A stretch of 46,386 bases of DNA from Candidatus Roizmanbacteria bacterium RIFCSPHIGHO2_12_FULL_37_23 (GTDB taxonomy: Bacteria; Patescibacteriota; Microgenomatia; UBA1406; HO2-37-13b). Location: the NCBI GenBank assembly GCA_001788095.1, contig MFZX01000002.1, positions 1-46,386 on the forward strand. The letters are read 5' to 3'. The position numbers and the translations under genes are program-made. Below are positions 5,127-46,386 of the stretch, one piece after another. A model generated the notes under the pieces. That model worked only from the letters and a program-made list of their open reading frames with translations. It searched no databases and was not told where the DNA came from. Position 1 is the stretch's first letter. Every line of letters starts with the position of its first letter.

Positions 5127-5169
5127 TTTAGCCTCAAATCCCACCTCGGGAGTGGGATTTGAGGCTAAA
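5127..5169. terminator. Long perfect hairpin between convergent genes (copy 1 of a repeated palindrome)
   Basis: An 18-bp perfect stem (TTTAGCCTCAAATCCCAC and its complement) with a 7-nt loop (145-151) lies between the plus-strand small protein and the minus-strand M24 peptidase. A/T runs flank it on both sides, so it can act as a bidirectional terminator. A near-identical copy with inverted loop is at 11777-11813. Confidence 0.75.
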
Positions 5170-10016: not shown

Positions 10017-10214
10017 TCAGATTTTATAATCATGTATTAAATGTTTATCTAATAAAACAGCAACTGCAAAATAGAGAATACTAAAAAAGATAATGCCAAT
10101 CAACTCCTCAAAATTGAAATTTTTATTGAAAGGCAAGATTAAAGCAATTCCAAGCCACCCAGCAGAAATATCACTTATGATGTCTTTTAATATACGAATC
10201 ATAGAGCTGATCAT
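10017..10214 (-). CDS. Small two-helix membrane protein
   Basis: 65 residues if started at ATG 10214 (MISSMIRILK); ATG 10232 is an alternative. Two membrane helices are visible (about DISAGWLGIALILPF and LIGIIFFSILYFAVAVLL), joined by a short polar loop, with a basic C-terminus. The frame stays open upstream into GC-rich island 1, but that part is not coding-like and is taken up by the island's terminal hairpin. It probably forms a unit with the 33-residue gene downstream. Function unknown. Confidence 0.55.
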   Translation of the reverse strand: MISSMIRILKDIISDISAGWLGIALILPFNKNFNFEELIGIIFFSILYFAVAVLLDKHLIHDYKI

Positions 10215-10291
10215 ACGGAGAGGATAGCACATGAATATTAAATTGTTCTTAACTGGCGGAGACCGATAGAAATTTGGAGGTACTGATGCGG

Positions 10292-10402
10292 GTGGAAGGA
10301 GCCGGGACTGGCGAGGTGTTGATTGCTTGGGGATTGTTGACACCGGAGTGTCGACTCTCGCGTCAAGCGCACAAACACCAGGCACAGCCCGGCTCCTTCC
10401 AC
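10292..10402. repeat. Terminal long hairpin of GC-rich island 1
   Basis: A perfect 15-bp outer stem (10292-10306 with 10388-10402) encloses nested helices: GGTGTT/AACACC (10315-10320 with 10374-10379), GCTTG/CAAGC (10325-10329 with 10364-10368) and an 8-bp stem with one wobble around a CGGA loop (10336-10355). An 8x8 internal loop separates the outer and inner stems. It lies 121 nt after the last island gene and marks the change back to AT-rich DNA. There is no U-run on either side. It could be a U-less terminator or a recombination/processing hairpin. Confidence 0.7.
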
Positions 10403-10523
10403 GCCGCTACCGCCTGCGGGGGGAACGGCGAATGATCGCTCATCCGGCGTAAACCGCGGGCGGGGGGGAGTCCCGTCACACCACCAAGGCGGCGTGCCGA
10501 GACAAGAGTTCAGGTCGTCAAGC

Positions 10524-10787
10524 CTAGTACCAGGGTACCTCCAGCGTCTCCCAGCAGCTCATGGCCTCTGGCGACATGCCGGGGCTCACGAAGCCGCCGT
10601 TGGCGTCCCAGAACGCGTGGACCGGAGCGCACGTGTAACCCGTTATGCGCCAGGTCGAGCGGGGGACATTGGAGTAGCCGTAGTAGCCGTAGCCGCCCTG
10701 CGCGCTGACGATGCCTGGCACGGCGAATCCTACCGCGACGGCGAGGACGAGGATGAGAAGGACGACGATCCTTGAACGCGTTCGCAT
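10524..10787 (-). CDS. Small secreted Gly/Tyr/Trp-rich protein (island 1)
   Basis: 87 residues from ATG 10787, which follows the previous stop by 4 nt. The signal peptide (about MRTRSRIVVLLILVLAVAVG to VSA) is followed by QGGYGYYGYSN and a short aromatic-rich domain with two Cys (GYTC, MSC) ending EVPWY. A longer upstream extension of the same frame is only a shadow of the preceding gene. Codons are strongly GC-biased, unlike neighbouring non-island genes. No family is recognised; the pair of small secreted proteins may form a surface structure. Confidence 0.75.
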   Translation of the reverse strand: MRTRSRIVVLLILVLAVAVGFAVPGIVSAQGGYGYYGYSNVPRSTWRITGYTCAPVHAFWDANGGFVSPGMSPEAMSCWETLEVPWY

Positions 10788-10791
10788 CGTC

Positions 10792-11217
10792 CTACCGCCA
10801 GTAGTAGTCGTAGTACGACTGCGGCACCAACGCGTCGTTGTAGGCGTCGTAATAGCCCCCGGCACCCCAGTAGAAGTTCTCCTGGTACAACGGCAGGTAG
10901 CTCGGGAGCTGGTCGGTGTACGAGTCGTACGGCAGGTTCTGCCAGGACTGACCGTACGGGTCGGTGAACGTGTAGGTCGTGTCGGGCTTCTGCCACGACG
11001 GGGGCTGCGTTGGCTGGCAGTACGACCAGTCGACGTAACCATCCTGGTTGTCGTCCACGTTGACGGCGATGCTCGGACCGAGGCCGGCGGACTGGCTCGT
11101 CACCGTGCAGCTGGCGTTGGTGAGGTAGTTGCTGCCCTGGGCGTTGGTCGTGCCGGCGAAGCCGAGGATGCTGACGACCAGTGTCAGCGTGATGATGAGA
11201 CGTCGTGTGGGGGTCAT
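10792..11217 (-). CDS. Secreted Tyr-rich protein (island 1)
   Basis: 141 residues. The signal peptide runs from MTPTRRLIITLTLVVSILGF to TNAQ. The mature part has two Cys (ASC, SYC), a DDNQDGYVDW segment resembling a short Ca-binding loop (D-x-N/D-x-D-G), and a very Tyr-rich C-terminus ending YYDYYWR. Start ATG 11217 is preceded by AAAGGA at good spacing. It is the middle gene of a three-gene GC-rich operon and is coupled to the 87-residue secreted protein. The Ca-binding suggestion is weak; function unknown. Confidence 0.75.
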   Translation of the reverse strand: MTPTRRLIITLTLVVSILGFAGTTNAQGSNYLTNASCTVTSQSAGLGPSIAVNVDDNQDGYVDWSYCQPTQPPSWQKPDTTYTFTDPYGQSWQNLPYDSYTDQLPSYLPLYQENFYWGAGGYYDAYNDALVPQSYYDYYWR

Positions 11218-11304
11218 GCTCGAGTCCTTTCGGTTCGGGTTCGGATACGCTTGAGCTTCGTACTTATTCAGTTGTGTTGTTTCGGTTCACCTCCTTGTGT
11301 GGAC

Positions 11305-11475
11305 CTAGCGGATGTTGATGATGCCGAGCGACAGCGCGAGCACAAAGAGGATGGCCAGGGCGGCCAACCAGTTCGTGCCTACGCGTACGCGTTCGGCGTG
11401 GAGCCTGGGCTCCTGGCGTCGCTGCAGGGCGGCGCTGTGAAGCCGGCGTGTTACTTCAGTAACTGTCGGGTTCAA
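11305..11475 (-). CDS. 56-residue tail-anchored membrane protein (island 1)
   Basis: The reading frame starts at TTG 11475 after a textbook AAGGAGGTGA and ends at TAG 11305. The product begins MNPTVTEVTRRLHSA, has an Arg-rich cytoplasmic part, and ends in one membrane helix (NWLAALAILFVLALSLGII). It is the first gene of the island 1 operon; 18 nt later the same ACAAGGAGGTGA sequence recurs in front of the next gene. The coding is strongly GC-rich. The precise ribosome-binding site makes this short gene credible. Function unknown. Confidence 0.65.
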   Translation of the reverse strand: MNPTVTEVTRRLHSAALQRRQEPRLHAERVRVGTNWLAALAILFVLALSLGIINIR

Positions 11476-11494
11476 GTACTCACCTCCTTGTGTA

Positions 11495-11655
11495 ATCTCA
11501 TCCCAGTGATGAGATCAAGGGGGAAGACTATTGAAACTTACCAATGAATTTCAACTTTCTTCTCCCTCGATCTCTTGTGAGATGAGCTAACCTGAATCCC
11601 GCTTTTTAAGCGGGACAGATACCTGTAATCCTAAAAATAGGGAAACAGCTATCTG
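11495..11655 (-). promoter_or_regulatory. Structured leader of island 1 with alternative hairpins
   Basis: Read on the minus strand, four segments can pair 1:2, 2:3 or 3:4. These are ATCTC (11579-11583), GAGATC (11569-11574), GATCTCATC (11508-11516) and GATGAGAT (11495-11502). The 2:3 option is a 64-nt hairpin (11511-11574) and the 3:4 option sits just before AAGGAGGTGA. Upstream are two more hairpins: 11597-11615 (8-bp perfect) and 11616-11655 (11-bp stem, one mismatch). The arrangement resembles an attenuator or switch. No riboswitch class is recognised. Beyond 11655 up to the promoter nothing else is seen. Confidence 0.5.
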
Positions 11656-11731
11656 CTCATTTTTTCAAGGTGCGAATGCAATTACCGCCCACGCAAATAG
11701 ACGGCTTTGAATTCACCTATATATATCCTAT

Positions 11732-11759
11732 AGTTTAACATATAGTTTTAAAAAATCAA
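11732..11759 (-). promoter_or_regulatory. Promoter of GC-rich island 1
   Basis: Minus strand: TTGATT (11754-11759), 16 bp, TAAACT (11732-11737), followed by ATAGGATAT. This is the same post--10 extension as at other promoters in the window. It predicts a leader of about 250 nt before the TTG at 11475. Confidence 0.5.
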
Positions 11760-11776
11760 TTAACAAACACAGATTC

Positions 11777-11813
11777 AGCCTCGAATCCCACTCCCGAGGT
11801 GGGATTTGAGGCT
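11777..11813. terminator. Long hairpin (copy 2 of the repeated palindrome)
   Basis: 15-bp arms (11777-11791 and 11799-11813, one mismatch) with loop TCCCGAG, the reverse complement of the loop at 5127-5169. In both places the hairpin has the same orientation relative to the gene it follows. Here it provides part of the methyltransferase stop codon region. Confidence 0.65.
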
Positions 11814-33040: not shown

Positions 33041-33847
33041 TTAAAAATTATTGTACAAAAACGGCAAAATGACACTCTTATTCTTAGGATGACATGCAAG
33101 AATAGGATATCCCTTTTGCGGATCTGAAAAATCAAGAACTATTTCTTTGTTGTCCCAATCAACGACAGTTCCGCCAGATTCTTTAACAATGCAATATCCG
33201 GCAGCGAAATCCCATATAAAAGGTTTTCCAATGACAAAAGAAAAACGATTCAATGCTACATAACAAAGATCAAGTTCGAATGCACCGAGCCATCTGACAT
33301 TGTGGGTTAATGGTACAAGATCTTGTGCAATGGTAAACCATTGTGTCAATGAGGATTTTTTTGGATAAAAGCCCATGACGGCAAGGCTGTGGGCAAGTGG
33401 AGCATGCTGTATATGAAGCTTTTTTGTCTGTGTACTGGAAATCATATTTGCACCCTTTCCTTGTTCTGCGAGAAACATAGTATCGCGAACAGGATCATAA
33501 ATCACTCCTGCAATAAGTTCTGAGTTTTTAGCGAGCCCAATTGAAACACAAAAATAGTCAATGCCTGCAGCGAAATTACTTGTGCCGTCAAGCGGATCGA
33601 TAATAAAGGTATATGTACCTGATTTGTGTAATCCTTCCTCACCAATGAATCCGATCTGATCTACGGGAATTCCCTTTTTTTTCATCTCGCGGAGAATATG
33701 ATTTTCAATAGCTTTTTCGCATACTTTATCAGCTTCAGTAACTATTTGATGCGCATCATCTTTGTGTTCAATCCGAAGCTCTTTTTGGTAATAACTGAGC
33801 AAAATTGTGCCAGCTTCTCGTGCAGCAGATTCAAGGATATTGATCAT
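33041..33847 (-). CDS. suhB: Inositol monophosphatase family protein
   Basis: 268 residues from ATG 33847, preferred over ATG 33877 because family members start shortly before AAREAGTILL and this avoids overlap with the permease gene. Metal-site motifs are present: GEEG (about 80), IIDPLDGTSNF (about 93-103) and the C-terminal WDFAAGYCIVKESGG. The family dephosphorylates inositol phosphate or related sugar or nucleotide phosphates with Mg2+. It is the third gene of an ABC transporter operon. Confidence 0.9.
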   Translation of the reverse strand: MINILESAAREAGTILLSYYQKELRIEHKDDAHQIVTEADKVCEKAIENHILREMKKKGIPVDQIGFIGEEGLHKSGTYTFIIDPLDGTSNFAAGIDYFCVSIGLAKNSELIAGVIYDPVRDTMFLAEQGKGANMISSTQTKKLHIQHAPLAHSLAVMGFYPKKSSLTQWFTIAQDLVPLTHNVRWLGAFELDLCYVALNRFSFVIGKPFIWDFAAGYCIVKESGGTVVDWDNKEIVLDFSDPQKGYPILACHPKNKSVILPFLYNNF

Positions 33848-33857
33848 ATTGAGCTTA

Positions 33858-34640
33858 TTAAGCTTCGAGTCGGGCAAACATACCAGACTCCCGGGCTCGC
33901 TTAAACATTTTTATAAAATAGATATAAGCAATAACGAAGTAAATTATATTACCAACTATAGCGATGAGAATATAATCTACATTAGTAACACCAGTGAACA
34001 ATTTTTGACGAGCTCCTTCAAAGACATATGTTAAAGGCAACAAGAGTGCTATTTTTTGCATAAACTTTGGCATTACTTCTATTGGGTAAAAGACAGCAGC
34101 AACGGGCTGGAGAAGAAAAAATAAGCTCCATGCGAAAGCCTGAATTTTATTTCCATATCTAAAAATAAGTGCGGTAATGACCATCCCAGCAGACCAAGAA
34201 AATACGAGGAGATTTATAAAATGTATTGGAAGCTCAAGTCCAAGCCGATAAATTGAAAAATCATATACAACAAAGGCAATGACTGAAATGATGATAAACA
34301 CTGAAAATGATTTTAAGAAACCCACAATCATTTGCGCTGCAAGAAATTCCCCTACAGATAATGGTGTGGTGAAAAGGTTGCTTAGGTTGCGGGACCACAC
34401 ATCGCGCAATACACCAAGCGAAATTGATAATTGCGCAACACGAGGAATTTCCCAAAATAAAATACCTAATAAGATAATCTGAGTCTTAACTGCTTCATTT
34501 TGAGCAAAATAAAGCGCAATAAGCCCAAAGACTACAATAGCGATGGTTGACCACCAAAAAACGTCGACCCACGCTTCAAGGCTTCGTTTTTGATAATACC
34601 AATTGTGCCACAGCAGGCTTTTAATCCTTATGAAAGACAT
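33858..34640 (-). CDS. ABC-2 type transporter permease
   Basis: 260 residues from ATG 34640 (MSFIRIKSLLWHNWYYQKRS). Six membrane helices with the ABC-2 layout: a long amphipathic N-terminus, paired helices at about 29-73, then four more. The segment RNLSNLFTTPLSVGEFLAAQ is typical of the coupling region. It pairs with the ATPase encoded immediately upstream (20-bp overlap) to form an exporter, possibly for glycans, lipids or drugs; the substrate is unknown. Confidence 0.85.
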   Translation of the reverse strand: MSFIRIKSLLWHNWYYQKRSLEAWVDVFWWSTIAIVVFGLIALYFAQNEAVKTQIILLGILFWEIPRVAQLSISLGVLRDVWSRNLSNLFTTPLSVGEFLAAQMIVGFLKSFSVFIIISVIAFVVYDFSIYRLGLELPIHFINLLVFSWSAGMVITALIFRYGNKIQAFAWSLFFLLQPVAAVFYPIEVMPKFMQKIALLLPLTYVFEGARQKLFTGVTNVDYILIAIVGNIIYFVIAYIYFIKMFKRARESGMFARLEA

Positions 34641-35556
34641 ATTTTCCTTTTCGAGCAACTTCTAAAAAAACGTCTTCAAGGTTTGGTTTCTTAATATCTA
34701 TATCAGTAATCCATATTTTGCGTTTACTAAAACCAAAAAGGACTTTTGGAATGAGTTCTTCATCAACTTCAATGTGTACGACTTCTTTGCGAGGAAATGA
34801 GAATTTTATATTGTGCTCATTAAGATACGAAGCAATATCCTGTTGCTGCGCGTCAAACGTGAGAGTGATAATAGACGTTTTGATATGTTTTGTAAGACCA
34901 AGTGGTGTGTCCATGGCAATAATATTTCCATGGTCGAGAAATATAACTCGGTCACATATATGGGATACTTCATTCATATCATGACTTGTGAAAAGTATTG
35001 ACACGCCCTTTTCCTTACGTAGCTCGTCTATAAAGTCTAAAACTTTATCAGCGATATCAGGATCAAGAGATGCGGTTGGTTCATCCATCAAAATAAGCTG
35101 TGGATCATTAATAAATGATTTAACAAGATTAACCCGCGTCTTTTCACCTGATGAAAGGCCCCAATATTGTTTATAGATAACGTTTTCGATCTCGAGCCTC
35201 TGTACAAGTTCTTGAATCTTTTGTTCAAGGTTTGGTACTGCATAAAGTCCCCCAAAAACTTTTAAATTTTCATGTACGGTGATTCTCCCTTGAAGAGAAC
35301 CGTACGCGGTTGTGAAATTGATTTTTTGTAAACTTTCTTGCCGATGTTGTGCAAAGTCTTTTCCAAAATAGAATATCGAACCGCTCGTCTGTTCTGTAAT
35401 ACCCAAAAGCATTTGGATTGTGGTGGTCTTCCCTGCTCCATTCGCTCCTAAAAGTCCGACAACTTCTCCTTTTTCAATAGAAAAACTTATGCCGTTAACG
35501 GCAGTAAACTCGCCATATTTTTTTACCACATTGTGTACATCAAGAACTGGATGCAT
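34621..35556 (-). CDS. ABC transporter ATP-binding protein
   Basis: 311 residues. Walker A GANGAGKTT (about 38-46), ABC signature LSSGEKTR, Walker B LILMDEPTASLDP and switch His (FTSHDMNEV) are all intact. A C-terminal ~80-residue extension is typical of DrrA/NatA-type exporters. It powers the ABC-2 permease encoded next in the operon. The start ATG 35556 is preceded by AT-rich DNA that separates it from the terminal hairpin of island 2. Confidence 0.95.
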   Translation of the reverse strand: MHPVLDVHNVVKKYGEFTAVNGISFSIEKGEVVGLLGANGAGKTTTIQMLLGITEQTSGSIFYFGKDFAQHRQESLQKINFTTAYGSLQGRITVHENLKVFGGLYAVPNLEQKIQELVQRLEIENVIYKQYWGLSSGEKTRVNLVKSFINDPQLILMDEPTASLDPDIADKVLDFIDELRKEKGVSILFTSHDMNEVSHICDRVIFLDHGNIIAMDTPLGLTKHIKTSIITLTFDAQQQDIASYLNEHNIKFSFPRKEVVHIEVDEELIPKVLFGFSKRKIWITDIDIKKPNLEDVFLEVARKGKYVFHKD

Positions 35557-35605
35557 AGGTACAAGTATAGCGTATAAGGGACCTCGTGTGTAGGTTGTGA
35601 AGTTG

Positions 35606-35676
35606 TCTATATTTGCAGGGCGCGTGCCTTGTGGTGACGTCGGGTTGACGTCAGGTACGCGCCCTGCAAATGTAGA
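35606..35676. repeat. Terminal long hairpin of GC-rich island 2
   Basis: A 20-bp outer stem (35606-35625 with 35657-35676, 19 of 20 paired, one T/G) encloses CCT/AGG and GACGTC/GACGTC around a GGGTT loop. It lies 22 nt after the island gene's stop; a small GCTAGC hairpin (35683-35699) lies in between. There is no U-run. Past it the sequence is AT-rich again. Confidence 0.7.
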
Positions 35677-35698
35677 GATCCTGCTAGCTGTGGGCTAG

Positions 35699-37558
35699 CT
35701 ACCGTTGGAGGAGAGGGAGGAACAGCTGTGTTCGAGTAGCGGAGCCAACGGAGAAGCCGAGGAGGCCCATCTCTTCATTGGCAACGATCAGATCGCCGCC
35801 AGCGAAACACATGGTCCTAATGTCGGCCTTCAGCTTCGTGTAACTCGTTCGCTCGCCGCTTGTGATGTCGAAGCTTGCGACTCTGTTCCAGAAGCCCAGG
35901 TACACGGTCTTCCCGTCACTGGCTGGGATGACTTCGACTGGTACGTCTGAATCAGACGGGAACCACTCCCTGTGATCGATTCTACCGATTTCCTTCGGCG
36001 AGGCAGGATCGGTCACATCGAAGACCCAGAAGAAATTCTCGCCCACCGTGAGGAGTCGACTGTCAGGTAGCAGCGAGAATCCAGCTACACTCTGGTGATC
36101 CGGGCTTTCGACCTTGCCAATCTCCCGTGGCTTCCTCACGTTAGAGACATCGAAGATGTGAACGCTGGACCATCTGCTCGAGACGTAGAGGACCTTCCCA
36201 TCCTCGGACAGCTTCGCTCCCGATGCCAGCATGTTGATCCACGACCACAGCCGTAGTGTGTTAGGATCGTAGAGGTAGACTTTCTTCAGACCCGTTACGA
36301 TGAGTAACTGGTCGCTGGCTTCGATGTTGATTGCCCAATAGTGCTCATCGAGCTCCATGTTGTCGATGAGCTCACCGCCCTCAAAGACGTAGAGCGTTGG
36401 GTTCCAGTCTGTGACGAAGACCCTTCTTGAGTTCTGTGCCACGTGATCTAGGCCGTACTCCTCGTCGACCTCGGTGTGGCGGATCCCCCTGGTCTTTGGG
36501 TTGATGGTCCAGAGGCCGTTGTTGCTGGTCACCTCCAGATCGGTCCCGCACGAGACGCCCCTGGCGAAGCCGATCGGTACAGTATAGGTGCCGAGGAGAC
36601 TGAGTCCGTCGTTGAGCGTCACGAAACCGTCGGACCCGTCTAGTAGGACGTAGCCATCTTCGAACTTGCGGACTACGCGGTTTTCGCCCTGGTGGGCCTT
36701 CTGCACAGGGGGTTCACTCAGGTTCCTCAGGTTGTAACGGACGACTCCCTGGTAGCTGGTAACAAACAGCTCTTCATCGGCGATCTCGAGTCCGTTGATT
36801 CCTTCCTCGAAGACTCGCTCGAGCACGACTGTAGGGTTATCGATTTCGTTGGTATCGAAAACCCGCAGTATCGTGTTTCCTTCTAAGGAGGGAGTGATGA
36901 TTGTGCTTGCCAGCACTCTCCCTTCCTTGGAAGTCGCCACTCGTACGTATTGTCCGGGAGTGGTCTCCCCGAAAGCCGAGATCTGCTTCGGCTGCGCAGG
37001 GTTCTCGAGCGTATACACCTCGATCGCAGACCCCGCTGGCTGGAACAGGTACTTTTCGGCCACTGCGAGTTCGTACTCGTCCCATGGTGACTCGCTGTAG
37101 ACGAGCTTCGGTTCGGTCGGGTCGCTAAGGTCCACGACGGCGACCCCGATACCACTGCCCGCTATGTAGGCGTAACTACCTTGGACGACGATCTTGTAAC
37201 CATTGAGCTCGAGCAGCTTGCCGACCACCTTCAGCTCGGTCGGGTTGGCGATGTCCAGAACGACCAGATCGCGGCTGGTGAGGACGTAGGCGAACTTGCC
37301 TTCTACGTCCACGTAGCCCACGAGTCGATCGAACGGTTGGCTCTTGCCGATCAGTTTCGGCGTGGTTGGGTCGCTGAGGTCGAAGACCTGAAGTCGGTCC
37401 CCGACACCTACGTAGGCGAGTTCACCCTGAGCGTCGAGAGCAGACGGGTGTCCCCCGATCTGCCAGGATTGGGTGAGCTCCTGCCCTTGTGCCGTTACCG
37501 GCGCAGGCAGAAAGCTCAAGCTGAGGATGATGGTCAGGACAGCAAGTAGCCGGTACAT
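35699..37558 (-). CDS. Secreted LVIVD-type beta-propeller protein (island 2)
   Basis: 619 residues. Signal peptide 1-23 (ending APVTAQ). The mature chain consists of repeated ~40-residue blocks of the kind AYVGVGDRLQVFDLSDPTTP, AYVLTSRDLVVLDIANPTE and VSSRWSSVHIFDVSNVRKP, the LVIVD/YVTN-like propeller pattern. It ends in TRTQLFLPLLQR, matching the short YLPLxxR-type segments common in secreted Chloroflexi proteins, which may be a sorting or processing tag. ATG 37558 follows GGGGAGG. Coding is about 55-60% GC by eye, against AT-rich neighbours. It probably acts in surface binding. Confidence 0.85.
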   Translation of the reverse strand: MYRLLAVLTIILSLSFLPAPVTAQGQELTQSWQIGGHPSALDAQGELAYVGVGDRLQVFDLSDPTTPKLIGKSQPFDRLVGYVDVEGKFAYVLTSRDLVVLDIANPTELKVVGKLLELNGYKIVVQGSYAYIAGSGIGVAVVDLSDPTEPKLVYSESPWDEYELAVAEKYLFQPAGSAIEVYTLENPAQPKQISAFGETTPGQYVRVATSKEGRVLASTIITPSLEGNTILRVFDTNEIDNPTVVLERVFEEGINGLEIADEELFVTSYQGVVRYNLRNLSEPPVQKAHQGENRVVRKFEDGYVLLDGSDGFVTLNDGLSLLGTYTVPIGFARGVSCGTDLEVTSNNGLWTINPKTRGIRHTEVDEEYGLDHVAQNSRRVFVTDWNPTLYVFEGGELIDNMELDEHYWAINIEASDQLLIVTGLKKVYLYDPNTLRLWSWINMLASGAKLSEDGKVLYVSSRWSSVHIFDVSNVRKPREIGKVESPDHQSVAGFSLLPDSRLLTVGENFFWVFDVTDPASPKEIGRIDHREWFPSDSDVPVEVIPASDGKTVYLGFWNRVASFDITSGERTSYTKLKADIRTMCFAGGDLIVANEEMGLLGFSVGSATRTQLFLPLLQR

Positions 37559-37585
37559 GGGTTTTCCTCCCCTGTGAATGTGATA

Positions 37586-37641
37586 CCACTTTAGGACTTT
37601 CTATTAAGTATGTAAATAATTAACAGGAAGCCCTAAAGTGG
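37586..37641. promoter_or_regulatory. Leader hairpin upstream of island 2
   Basis: CCACTTTAGG (37586-37595) pairs perfectly with 37632-37641, extended by imperfect pairs inward, around an AT-rich loop. It sits in the 5' region of the propeller gene. A TTGACA lies just upstream on the minus strand (about 37656-37661), but no convincing -10 is seen at 17 bp. Confidence 0.45.
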
Positions 37642-37803
37642 AGGATCTCTACATGTCAAAGAGCTCGTTGATATTTTAACCTGCCTTCATGCAATAAAAA
37701 AGCCAATAGAATATCAACTTCTATCTTAATTAGTATGCTATTATACTATAGGATTCTTAATGTTACAACCGACGTCCTTGGTGAGAATTATTTTAGGTAT
37801 ATA

Positions 37804-38133: not shown

Positions 38134-38799
38134 ATGACATATAGAAAAATAACATTTGGAGACAATAAGTTTTACCATGTATTTAATAGGTCGGTCGCAG
38201 ATGAAAAGATATTTTATGGAATTGAGGAACTTGAGCGCGCTATATCTCTTATCCAGTTTTATCGTTATAAACCGCTTATGAGCTACTCAGTATTCAAGAG
38301 GATAAGTTCTGAGGAGCAACATCGATACATTGAGCATATAAGTAGATACCAGGCGCTTATTAATATACACGCATTTTCCTTAATGCCTAATCACCATCAT
38401 TTTTTACTCGAACAAAAGCAAGACGATGGAGTCTCTCAGTTTGTAAGTAATCTGCAAAATAGCTTTGCTAAGTACTTTAATAAAAAAAATAGTAGAAGAG
38501 GATCATTGTTCTGCGAAATGTTTAAGGCGGTTCATATAAAGACACAAGAGCAATATGTCCATGTTTCTCGATACATTCATCTAAACCATGTAACTTCAGG
38601 ACTTATTTCCCTAGATGACTTAGATTTTTATCCCTACTCTTCTTTTAGTTGTTATATGGAAAATAACAAAATGGAATTTGTTTATAAAGATATGATTTTA
38701 GCAATATTTGGAGGTAAGGAAAGATATAGGGCGTTTGTTCGAAACCATGCGGATTATCAGAAAAGTCTGCATATTATCAAAAAACTTACTCTTGATTAG
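38134..38799 (+). CDS. REP-associated tyrosine transposase (RAYT, HUH family)
   Basis: 221 residues, the usual RAYT size. The HUH metal-binding motif is in SLMPNHHHFLLE (H87 and H89). GSLFCEMFKAVHI is the conserved pre-catalytic block, and SRYIHLNHV carries the candidate catalytic Tyr147 (usual form YIHLNPV). Y1 transposases nick and join single-stranded DNA at hairpin-containing sites. Copies of a REP-like repeat sit at 38052 and 38804, directly flanking the gene, with more at 40047 and 17648. It is intact, so the system may still be active. A -10-like TATCGT lies 7 nt before the ATG. Confidence 0.88.
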   Translation: MTYRKITFGDNKFYHVFNRSVADEKIFYGIEELERAISLIQFYRYKPLMSYSVFKRISSEEQHRYIEHISRYQALINIHAFSLMPNHHHFLLEQKQDDGVSQFVSNLQNSFAKYFNKKNSRRGSLFCEMFKAVHIKTQEQYVHVSRYIHLNHVTSGLISLDDLDFYPYSSFSCYMENNKMEFVYKDMILAIFGGKERYRAFVRNHADYQKSLHIIKKLTLD

Positions 38800-43623: not shown

Positions 43624-44263
43624 GTACCTGAGAGAGTCCGAATAACAAAAGACTCAAAGCTTGATAATTTCTTCCATCATGAGCTTCTAGTGTGTACAAG
43701 CCAATATCAGGAATAAGTAAATGAGGTTCCCCGGGAGTTCTTCTATCTACTACAATATTTGCAAGTACTAAATCTGTAGGGTGATCACCACGTAAGCGAG
43801 ATACTGCAGTCCTCCAAAAACCTTCACCACCGACAGGTTCAAGAGAAAAACCTGTATCAGTAATCAGCTGTCCGTTGCTGTCGAGCATATCGTGAAACTG
43901 GTCCTTCACTTCAGGAAGCACTCTTGATGTTAATGGTTCATAAACCCGTAAGTATTCTTGCACAAGACAATAGGTTGAATCGACTTGGTAAACTTCTGTT
44001 GGCATCATGTAGTCGGGAAAGTATTGTTGTAGTAAAGCCACATTGCGTTGTGCTGCTTGAGGGGTTTTTATAGCAAAAGGGAGGCCATTTGGCAATTTTA
44101 AAACCATGTCTGAGCCGTATCGTACAACGGTATGTTGACCACCACGAGATACGAGATCACCGATGTGTGTGGGATCAAAATATGGGAATGCTTCAAGTAG
44201 TTTTCTTTCTTTTGGACTCAGTTCTTTTTCGTGGGAAAAGTGTTCTCGAATAGTATGGATCAT
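43550..44263 (-). CDS. Protein-kinase-like fold, probably atypical or inactive
   Basis: 237 residues. LVSRGGQHTVVRYGSDMVLKLP (first 20 residues from about 37) looks like a glycine loop, with K56 as the ATP lysine. LVLANIVVDRR (about 167) aligns with the catalytic-loop Asn region and LIPDIGLY with the DFG-like metal-binding Asp, but no clear HRD Asp is seen. It could be a pseudokinase or a small-molecule phosphotransferase. It shares 74 bp of its 3' end with the PanE-like gene on the other strand. No family assignment is certain. Confidence 0.5.
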   Translation of the reverse strand: MIHTIREHFSHEKELSPKERKLLEAFPYFDPTHIGDLVSRGGQHTVVRYGSDMVLKLPNGLPFAIKTPQAAQRNVALLQQYFPDYMMPTEVYQVDSTYCLVQEYLRVYEPLTSRVLPEVKDQFHDMLDSNGQLITDTGFSLEPVGGEGFWRTAVSRLRGDHPTDLVLANIVVDRRTPGEPHLLIPDIGLYTLEAHDGRNYQALSLLLFGLSQVLIRHYLDMDLRGEHLQASNHTAVE

Positions 44264-44331
44264 TATGAATGTATATGAATAATGAATATAGGATTATATA
44301 TGTTATACGTGTTGTAATGTATTGGAACTTC

Positions 44332-44409
44332 GAAACAAGGGCGGCGATACTGGCCGGGGGCGTGCACGCGGGGCGTGCGCGTCATACGGCGGTTCGCCGC
44401 CCTTGTTTC
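44332..44409. repeat. Terminal long hairpin of GC-rich island 3
   Basis: A perfect 15-bp outer stem (GAAACAAGGGCGGCG at 44332-44346 with 44395-44409) encloses GCCG/CGGC (44353-44356 with 44387-44390) and an 11-bp inner stem with wobbles (44359-44369 with 44373-44383, loop GGG). A smaller CACCGC/GCGGTG hairpin (44421-44435) lies between it and the gene. There is no U-run; left of it the DNA is AT-rich. Confidence 0.7.
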
Positions 44410-44461
44410 ATGGTGTCCGTCACCGCGGGGCGGTGTCAGACGTGGCTTCAAGGATGGTGTG

Positions 44462-45370
44462 CTAGGGGCACGGGACCGTGGGTACCGGCGGGACGGTTGG
44501 GACCGGGGTCCCTCCTGGCACCGTCGGAATCGGCGGCACGGTTGGTGGCTGTGGGCAGCCGGGCGTGTTGGTGGGACCCGTAGGGGTTGTGGCGCTGGGC
44601 GTCGGTGTGGGTGGCGGTGTGTGCGTCAGTGTCGGTGACGGTCCGCTGGTCGAGGTCTGGGTTGTCGTGGCGGTGGCGCACTCGCTGTCGCTTTCAACAA
44701 GCGATAGTACGCTAAGCCCGACTACGTAAGCTGGCAACGACCCCCCGAGCGGGCAACACGTCCTTCGACCGAAGACTGTTACCGTCTTGCCTTCTAGTGC
44801 CTGGAAGAAACTCCAGCCGTTCGGATGGCTCAACTGTGTGATCATGTTGTCGCAGTCGCGGACGACCGCAACGAAGTCTCCACAGCCCTCGTACTGCTGA
44901 AGCACCCCGTTCGCTACACGGAGTTGTCCTTCTCCTACGCAGAGAGTGGGTGTCAACGTCGGTGTTGGCGTAGGAGGTTGCTGTGCCTGCCTCAGTACCA
45001 ACGGCAGGTACAGCTTCCGGATACAATCCAGGCAGATCACCTCGAGGAGCGTCCGCACCTGCACGGTGCTTCCGTCGCGCTTCACGCAGTTGCTCATGAC
45101 GAGCATGATGGCCACGCGGTGGCCGATCAGGCTCTCCAACTGCTGACGTTGCGTCTCGGTCATGTGCTGGAACGAGATGATCATGTCGTCGACCCGTACT
45201 GCCCACGTGGCGCAGTCGCCGCCGAGCTTGGCGAGACTACCCACAAAGAACTCAGCTTGCTGGGGAGCCTGCGGCTCCGGGACTGGCGCGGCGTGCGCGT
45301 TACCGACGCACATGCTCGCATAGACGATGAGGGCGACGATGATCAACGACAGGATGCGGATGGGGTTCAT
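44462..45370 (-). CDS. Secreted two-domain protein with Pro/Thr-rich linkers (island 3)
   Basis: 302 residues. Signal peptide about 1-28 (ending NAHA). Two related ~70-residue domains occupy about 45-115 and 147-226: VRVDDMIISFQH aligns with VRDCDNMITQLSH, and LIGHRVAIMLVMSNC with LEGKTVTVFGRRTCC. Both look OB-fold-like and Cys-containing. Between them is LYLPLVLR plus PTPTPT; the C-terminus is a PT-rich tail ending PTVPPVPTVPCP. These PT linkers and YLPL segments are typical of Chloroflexi secreted proteins. ATG 45370 follows AAAGGAG. Coding is strongly GC-rich. Confidence 0.82.
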   Translation of the reverse strand: MNPIRILSLIIVALIVYASMCVGNAHAAPVPEPQAPQQAEFFVGSLAKLGGDCATWAVRVDDMIISFQHMTETQRQQLESLIGHRVAIMLVMSNCVKRDGSTVQVRTLLEVICLDCIRKLYLPLVLRQAQQPPTPTPTLTPTLCVGEGQLRVANGVLQQYEGCGDFVAVVRDCDNMITQLSHPNGWSFFQALEGKTVTVFGRRTCCPLGGSLPAYVVGLSVLSLVESDSECATATTTQTSTSGPSPTLTHTPPPTPTPSATTPTGPTNTPGCPQPPTVPPIPTVPGGTPVPTVPPVPTVPCP

Positions 45371-45494
45371 GAGCGTGTCTCCTTTGGTTGGTGAAGCGGG
45401 TATCCCTTTCCGCCACGTGGCAGATCGGGAAGAAAGTACTATTGTTAACAGGCCACCATCGCCTGCTTGTTCCCATTCCCCTATTCTTTTCTAC

Positions 45495-45626
45495 TACCTG
45501 GAGAAATATCTACGCATAAAAAATTTAAGTGGGTGGTTTGCCCGGGAGGGCTCCGATTTAATCGGAGGAGGGCAAAGCAGGCCCTACTCGATCATAAGTT
45601 TTTATACATACATACTTCTCCAGGTA
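45495..45626 (-). ncRNA. Structured RNA-like element A in the island 3 leader
   Basis: 132 nt bounded by TACCTGGAGAA (45495-45505) and its complement (45616-45626), with further imperfect pairing inward that includes G-U wobbles only in the minus-sense RNA. The inner 54-nt core (45531-45584) has a CTCCGAT/ATCGGAG hairpin and a TTTGCCC/GGGCAAA helix. It lies between the island 3 promoter and start codon, so it would be in the 5' UTR. No known RNA family is recognised. The rest of 45371-45720 holds only small hairpins and the AAAGGAG site. Confidence 0.55.
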
Positions 45627-45720
45627 TCCTTTCTCTTTCCTTGAAGCCTAATTCTAAACGCGCGAAAGCACACTGCTCCAAGCTTTTAGGAACGGGCTTT
45701 CTCAACGTAAGTGAACCTAT

Positions 45721-45749
45721 AGTATAGCAGAATCTTTCCTCTTTTTCAA
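45721..45749 (-). promoter_or_regulatory. Promoter of GC-rich island 3
   Basis: Minus strand: TTGAAA (complement of 45744-45749), exactly 17 bp, TATACT (complement of 45721-45726), followed by ATAGG. It gives a leader of about 340 nt containing element A. Confidence 0.65.
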
Positions 45750-45773: not shown

Positions 45774-45869
45774 TTCAAAGCCACCTTAAATGCGGGTGGT
45801 TTACCCGGAAGGGCTCCGATTTAATCGGAGGAGGGCAAAGCAGGCCCCGCAATATCATTTGGCTTTGAA
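45774..45869 (-). ncRNA. Structured RNA-like element B (second copy of the core)
   Basis: 96 nt bounded by TTCAAAGCCA (45774-45783) and its complement (45860-45869). The core 45794-45847 matches that of element A at 52 of 54 positions; one change turns a G-C pair into G-U in the minus-sense RNA. The outer stem has a wholly different but still complementary sequence. It starts 6 nt after the stop of the HD gene and lies upstream of the island 3 promoter. Confidence 0.55.
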
Positions 45870-45875
45870 GTATTC

Positions 45876-46385
45876 CTACTTCACATCATTAAACTTTTTC
45901 AGATTTCTCCACCAGTCTGAAGAATGAACCCTTTCGAGCTCTTGTAGTAATTGTCGAGCTGATTTTGTATACAACCTCTTTTTTGTATTATGAATCATAT
46001 CCATCGCTTCCTCATAGCCTCGATCAACATATTCTTTTGCAGTTACTGCAAGTTCTAATAAATCTGCATCCCGAGCAATTTTTCCAGCTTTAGTTTTCTG
46101 ATATTCTCCTTGTTTCCACACTTTCATAAGATTCTCCCCCATCTTTGCAAGTGGCTGGAGTTGATGGTGAACCACTTTCTCTTCATTTACTTCGATATAT
46201 CTTTGAGCTACTTTATGCAAATCACCTATACGACACTCCCCTATTTGATGAAAAAGTACAATAGTACACACTTCATAGGGATCTTTATATTTTTCTAGAT
46301 GAGCGAGGAAGTATCCTATTTGTGCAGCTCTCAGTGTATGTTCTGCTACACTTTCGGGTTGTTCAACTGCGGCAAAACGCCAACC
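45876..46385 (-). CDS. HD-domain (YfbR/HDDC2-like) protein, 5' end outside window
   Basis: At least 170 codons, open at the right edge; a GTG at 46271 is internal, because the upstream frame reads GWRFAAVEQPESVAEHTLRAA, a conserved family block. The expected HD doublet is HQ here (LFHQIGECRIGDLHKVA, usual VHDxxEAxxGDI). The later Asp (KIARDADLLE) is kept. YfbR/HDDC2 enzymes are 5'-deoxynucleotidases; the D-to-Q change suggests altered metal binding or lost activity. It ends next to RNA-like element B. Confidence 0.75.
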   Translation of the reverse strand, partial: GWRFAAVEQPESVAEHTLRAAQIGYFLAHLEKYKDPYEVCTIVLFHQIGECRIGDLHKVAQRYIEVNEEKVVHHQLQPLAKMGENLMKVWKQGEYQKTKAGKIARDADLLELAVTAKEYVDRGYEEAMDMIHNTKKRLYTKSARQLLQELERVHSSDWWRNLKKFNDVK

Positions 46386-46386
46386 T

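Follow-up and report, generated by a model that had tools for sequence, protein, structure and literature searches.

The window is the whole stretch of 46,386 nt that was analysed, and it makes up an entire contig (C2) of an AT-rich genome of 1.09 Mb in 45 contigs that looks like that of an ultra-small, CPR-type bacterium. The enolase of this genome gave its best hit, with 58% identity, in a Patescibacteria MAG. The focal island (island 3) at 44332-45749 holds a promoter, a leader strand (x), a leader hairpin (H5), an open reading frame, a trailer strand (x') and a 3' hairpin (H3). The z-scores of the 3' hairpins given here and below are relative to dinucleotide shuffles.

Features of island 3:
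45721-45749, minus strand: sigma-70-like promoter TTGAAA-N17-TATACT, assigned by consensus match only
45638-45648, minus strand: strand x, GGCTTCAAGGA, 11-bp exact pairing with x'
45495-45626, minus strand: leader hairpin H5, z -6.7; the loop holds a repeated palindromic element (45531-45584)
44462-45370, minus strand: ORF P0003, 302 aa, with a signal-peptide-like N-terminus, the motif LYLPLVLR and a PT-rich tail
44444-44454, minus strand: strand x', 8 nt past the stop codon
44332-44409, minus strand: 3' hairpin H3, 16-bp perfect outer stem, no T-tract, z -7.5

P0003 matched no Pfam or NCBIfam family and had no homologue in viral contigs. The palindromic element in the H5 loop, GGGTGG...CAGGCCC, was observed in 54- and 89-nt forms in about six copies (window 45531-45584 and 45794-45847; L031 4763-4851; L033 11370-11423; L040 5164-5252; L111 ~18157); three of them lie in H5 loops, in either orientation, and the element had no Rfam match. 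Palindromic repeats of the type GTCATCC...GGATC were also seen in H5 or H3 loops. A further dispersed palindromic repeat, CCTCAAATCCCAC(TCCCGAG)GTGGGATTTGAGG, occurs at window 5127-5169 and 11777-11813 and at L028 5751, L031 1749 and L034 7248. The end of the window (46000-46386) and that of contig C28 (C28:21138-21524) share 94% identity, as if variation between strains had broken the assembly there.

The GC-rich islands of the window

Two more islands are present in the window. In these, boxA sites were assigned by motif match, and the promoter elements were read from the sequence.

Features of island 2:
37740-37745, minus strand: -10 element TATAAT
37667-37718, minus strand: leader hairpin H0 (GTTGATATT/AATATCAAC), upstream of boxA
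37654-37664, minus strand: boxA, GCTCTTTGACA
37642-37654, minus strand: strand x, ATGTAGAGATCCT, 13-bp exact pairing; begins 10 nt after the boxA start and overlaps boxA
37586-37641, minus strand: leader hairpin H5, z -5.9
35699-37558, minus strand: ORF P0002, 619 aa, secreted LVIVD-repeat protein with C-terminal LFLPLLQR
35670-35682, minus strand: strand x', AGGATCTCTACAT, 17 nt past the stop codon; overlaps the outer 7 nt of H3
35606-35676, minus strand: 3' hairpin H3, z -9.7

Features of island 1:
11732-11759, minus strand: promoter-like TTGATT...TAAACT
11662-11673, minus strand: boxA, GCACCTTGAAAA
11511-11574, minus strand: leader hairpin H5
10524-11475, minus strand: small ORFs (11305-11475, 10792-11217 and one ending at 10524)
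10292-10402, minus strand: 3' hairpin H3, z -5.8

Because x' of island 2 overlaps the outer 7 nt of H3, the x:x' helix and the foot of H3 are mutually exclusive there. For P0002 no homologue was found in genome contigs, and among 144 genomes one relative gave a weak repeat match. The leader and trailer comparisons of island 1 yielded no convincing x:x' pair, and in the leader of island 3 no boxA scoring above background was found (GCGCGTTTAGAA at 45652-45663 has a spacing that fits boxA, with a score of only 0.5). Among the islands of the window the full set of elements is therefore present in island 2 only, and the design has to be regarded as a strong trend over many units and not as invariant.

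A sequence-only reading of the window had described three GC-rich islands on the minus strand, with signal-peptide proteins, strong Shine-Dalgarno (SD) sites and a long hairpin lacking a U-tract after the last stop codon. The islands are real, with peaks of 62-71% GC in 300-nt windows against a window mean of 40% (other sampled stretches mostly had about 36%) and GC-rich extents of ~10151-11650, 35501-37675 and 44226-45575. SD sites and signal-peptide-like N-termini were confirmed in the window's islands, and all three 3' hairpins were present. No T-run follows H3 in these islands, so the hairpin with U-tract of an intrinsic terminator was not found at their 3' ends; the L110a island, unlike them, has a T9 after its 3' hairpin. 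It had also been observed correctly that the hairpins share an architecture and have unrelated sequences. The leader hairpins H5 of the three islands had been missed. The orientation on the minus strand held for the window and not in general; it is a coincidence of this contig, since other islands occupy the plus strand.

Spread, hairpins and cargo of the islands

In the 986 kb of the genome that were surveyed, in stretches, we found 16 GC-rich gene islands: three in the window, three on C27 (L031), three in L111, two in L110 and one each in L034, L043, L053, L118 and L120. An assembly chimera was considered and is unlikely, because the 16 islands are spread across many contigs, amid AT-rich genes, and have host-like leaders. 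In the sense strand the order of elements is sigma-70-like promoter, leader hairpin, boxA, strand x, H5, SD site with ORF(s), strand x' and H3. The coding part often reaches a GC3 of 0.75-0.85; the leaders and H5 share the AT-richness of the host.

The hairpins were not a general feature of ordinary AT-rich genes, as they might have been under the objection raised with the sequence-only reading. A stem score of at least 13 within 200 nt downstream was reached by 6% of 594 AT-rich genes and 46% of 13 islands (p = 1e-4); within 200 nt upstream it was reached by 4% of 574 genes and 62% of islands (p = 4e-8). An Rfam search of the window returned tRNA only, with nothing in the islands, and at a permissive threshold L031 gave chance matches only. 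The island ORFs themselves folded more strongly than synonymous shuffles (mean z -2.1) when compared with AT-rich genes (-0.3, p = 0.01) and GC-rich enolases (-0.5, p = 0.055), a weak hint in favour of the mode of action proposed below.

The cargo consists of LVIVD and VWA-domain proteins, PT-rich proteins, small proteins and a PlsY. That the islands encode secreted proteins was right for most members; the PlsY of this genome and a leucyl aminopeptidase in a relative do not fit. A short motif, [YF]LP[LVRY], is common to six island proteins and possibly serves as a surface-anchoring or sorting signal; such motifs we take to be present in secreted proteins of Chloroflexota.

Carriers of the motif:
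P0003: LYLPLVLR
P0002: LFLPLLQR
L031 vWA protein: IYLPRTY
L110 963-aa protein: FLPLVH
L118 protein: FLPVMLK
L043 286-aa protein: LFLPYV

BoxA, end-to-end pairing and the 16S operon

The pairing was discovered before the boxA. A comparison of flank against flank, which used no model, revealed in four islands exact inverted repeats 11-13 nt long. Their first copy stands just upstream of H5, their second after the stop codon, either ahead of H3 or at its foot. Upon reading the leaders, a boxA-like motif was noticed immediately before x. The typical distance from the start of boxA to that of x is 10-13 nt, and x pairs over 8-16 bp with x' just past the stop codon.

Three further examples, in the sense strand:
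L031, island of the 671-aa protein: boxA GCACTTTGAAAA, x TCAGGGTTTAGGAT, x' ATCCTAAACCCTGA
L043: boxA GCACTTTAACAAC, x AAGGTTCAGGAC, x' GTCCTGAACCTT
L118: boxA GCACATTAACAA, x TTGGCTTTTTGGTTAC, x' GTAACCAAGAAGCCAA

A boxA match or near-match was found in 15 of the 16 islands, island 3 being the exception, and it resembles the published boxA of NusB/S10. In leave-one-out scoring each island site ranked within about the top 120 of ~2 million positions, with a matrix whose training set was picked after the motif had been seen. Strict matches numbered only 44 genome-wide, and ten of these lie in island leaders (L031:7793 included); other boxA-like matches fall in AT-rich coding sequence.

The pairing proved specific for the two ends of the same island. 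Across 14 islands the mean x:x' score was 12.7 for own pairs and 8.7 for swapped pairs, and none of 200,000 permutations reached the observed total. When the best complement of the trailer was searched without constraint in 700 nt upstream, its start lay 10-13 nt past the beginning of boxA in 7 of 12 own pairs; in the swapped control, using the same search, it fell within 8-15 nt of the boxA start in 4 of 132 (p = 1e-6). In L120, an eighth island, boxA itself is part of the helix. Folding of leader and trailer joined by a linker gave a minimum free energy structure containing x:x' in all ten islands that could be judged, three others being left out. Altogether a boxA-adjacent leader strand complementary to the trailer was present in about 12 of the 15 islands with both ends, and was weak or absent in the rest. 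Mismatches in the helices were G-U in 33 cases and A-C in 13, which favours the mRNA sense; this is only suggestive, since the scoring was partly biased towards G-U and one helix had been put out of register.

The genome's own 16S rRNA gene (C9:25355-26871, minus strand) can be compared directly. Its operon has a promoter, a hairpin, a boxA-like site (GCTCGTTGACAA) and a leader strand starting within this site; the leader-trailer helix is 28 bp long and has GCTCGTTGACAA at its foot. This is the known arrangement of a leader-trailer helix next to boxA (PMC10250234), and judged from these elements the 16S operon and the islands are built to the same design. In E. coli the antitermination complex needs boxA, which suffices to form or recruit it; inserting sequence between boxA and the helix has the same effect as losing boxA, and tethering of boxA by NusB has been proposed to promote the leader-trailer helix (PMC10250234). 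The tight spacing of boxA and x in the islands fits this tethering mechanism. The E. coli 16S helix requires 17 bp (PMC10250234), and the island helices are shorter with their 8-16 bp.

NusB, Rho, RNase III and a single NusG are encoded in the genome, and no second gene of the NusG family was found there. An inositol-monophosphatase family gene lies at window 33041-33877; this family includes SuhB of the E. coli rrn antitermination complex, and we have no evidence here that the window gene has the role of SuhB.

The design recurs around GC-rich units in two other genera of the family (G006 and G004). In G006 a leucyl aminopeptidase unit (L128) has boxA ACACTTTTACAA, a 14-bp exact x:x' helix and an H5 (TCCAGCAAG/CTTGCTGGA), and L145 is a less clear instance; in G004 (L103) boxA GCACCTTGACAAT goes with a helix of 12 bp with one G-U, x' lying just inside the last ORF. 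L080 of G006 has boxA and no clear helix. This GC-rich island (L080 12876-14900) carries several similar-looking small ORFs of ~85-95 aa, and its leader boxA is GCACTTTGACA. Small samples (120 kb) of two genomes outside the family contained no GC islands.

Probable function of the islands and alternative explanations

We concluded, with a probability of about two in three, that the islands are autonomous transcription units with the layout of an rRNA operon and a GC-rich cargo of mostly secreted proteins. This layout suggests that island mRNAs are made and protected in the fashion of rRNA. From a sigma-70-like promoter, transcription would run into the leader with its hairpin and then boxA, where NusB-S10 and other Nus factors would be loaded onto RNA polymerase to give a processive, antiterminated and Rho-resistant complex. 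Such a polymerase could cross the GC-rich, strongly folding and probably slowly translated genes. With its start about 10-13 nt past that of boxA, x would be held at the polymerase throughout transcription of the ORF. As x' emerges just past the stop codon it would be captured by x (8-16 bp), closing the mRNA end to end in a manner resembling pre-rRNA, with H5 inside the closed loop and H3 capping the 3' side. The outcome may be a complete, nuclease-resistant and long-lived mRNA for surface-protein genes of a composition foreign to the host.

The islands share with the rRNA operon leader (boxB-boxA, NusB/S10; PMC10250234) the promoter, leader hairpin, boxA and a leader strand pairing with a trailer beyond the gene, as well as a GC-rich product in an AT-rich genome. 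They would work like such a leader, yet they are not rRNA operons: no rRNA was found within them, they enclose protein genes, their closing helix has 8-16 bp compared to 28 bp, and they have an additional H5 between x and the ORF and H3 after x'. A boxA in the 5' UTR of a protein gene is known from mRNA leaders such as suhB (PMC5725501), where it is no more than ~50 nt away from the start codon and acts as a repressor of translation. The island boxA, in contrast, is typically 106-330 nt upstream of the start codon (604 nt in one island) and is followed by a strand pairing with the 3' UTR. CRISPR arrays likewise carry an rrn-type complex on Rho-prone non-rRNA transcripts; they are untranslated repeats, and in the part of the source consulted no leader-trailer helix is described for them (PMC12691694). 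Processive antitermination of the LoaP or RfaH type also involves a leader hairpin in particular gene clusters, but requires a NusG paralogue (PMC12691694). In open-licence full text we found no description of protein genes or mRNAs with boxA and a leader-trailer helix. While boxA on mRNAs (PMC5725501) and rrn-type antitermination of CRISPR arrays (PMC12691694) are already known, this combination on protein genes would be new.

The structures could instead merely protect the mRNA, with H5, H3 and x:x' blocking nucleases and setting the mRNA ends, perhaps together with RNase III, which is encoded, and with boxA-like sites that do not antiterminate. The helices are the most constant feature and occur even in island 3, which lacks boxA; the strong enrichment of boxA in island leaders at a fixed spacing to x nevertheless makes this explanation rather unlikely. 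Another possibility was that GC-rich genes had been imported along with their own strong U-less terminators, the leader features being incidental. GC-rich coding with a GC3 often of 0.75-0.85 and the [YF]LP motifs, presumably of Chloroflexota type, speak for such an import, which we regard as very improbable given that leaders and H5 have the AT-rich composition of the host and that own-pair x:x' specificity and boxA spacing stay unexplained. The part of the idea that concerns H3 stands better, as H3 may well be a U-less 3'-end structure.

The sequence-only reading had also proposed mobile gene cassettes whose hairpins are structure-recognised recombination sites, be it of the integron, IS200/IS605 or another single-stranded DNA type. 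Their host-foreign GC content, scattered single-gene units and hairpins at both ends would suit this, and the genome has Y1 transposases and two tyrosine recombinases. The search for a recombinase found an IS200-like Y1 transposase gene near the window's islands (38134-38799) and no other recombinase beside them; neither tyrosine recombinase, found without an IntI-specific model, is next to these islands. The two other Y1 (RAYT-like) genes are at C10:7832-8059 and C38:32871-33107, the former lying between GAGGTTGGAGTA...AACCAAC palindromes of which the genome has further copies at other places. One of the tyrosine recombinase genes (C31:60868-61326, L034) was observed about 0.5 kb from the PlsY island (L034 2126-3100). 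With integron cassettes (attC) the islands have in common that a single-gene unit precedes a long hairpin whose sequence varies while its architecture is kept. Unlike them, they have uninterrupted outer stems of 15-16 bp, hairpins on both sides, scattered single units, boxA and end-to-end pairing, and the core sites RYYYAAC/GTTRRRY with unpaired spacer were absent, read by eye, from the ends of the three H3, whose outer stems are perfect. The identical ends of all copies expected for IS200/IS605 were not found, the sequences of hairpins and inverted repeats being different in every island; a transposon reading was rejected for this reason and for the lack of direct repeats at the island ends. 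H5 lies in an ordinary leader downstream of the promoter and mostly of boxA. The hairpins do not delimit the unit, since promoter, boxA and x are all situated outside H5, and the long-range pairing joins 5' UTR to 3' UTR, anchored to boxA, which is a signal in RNA. The 16S gene has the same layout, and a DNA search of 96 genomes (95 relatives) detected no related island that could serve as donor or empty site. We consider mobile cassettes very unlikely.

Returning to units laid out like rRNA operons, we tentatively propose that this CPR lineage may make one class of mRNA by a dedicated route resembling rRNA biogenesis. These mRNAs would be boxA-tethered, closed end to end and internally structured, and their high GC might be kept by selection for RNA structure and not be the trace of a recent transfer. 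Antitermination by boxA and leader-trailer helices are regarded as rRNA machinery, and their systematic use by protein genes would be a new expression strategy. If true, it would give AT-rich, reduced genomes a means of expressing surface genes that are GC-rich and look foreign, and would provide a legible signature by which to find such genes in uncultured CPR bacteria. The islands also make it testable whether boxA tethering drives the 5'-3' closure of any RNA, beyond rRNA.
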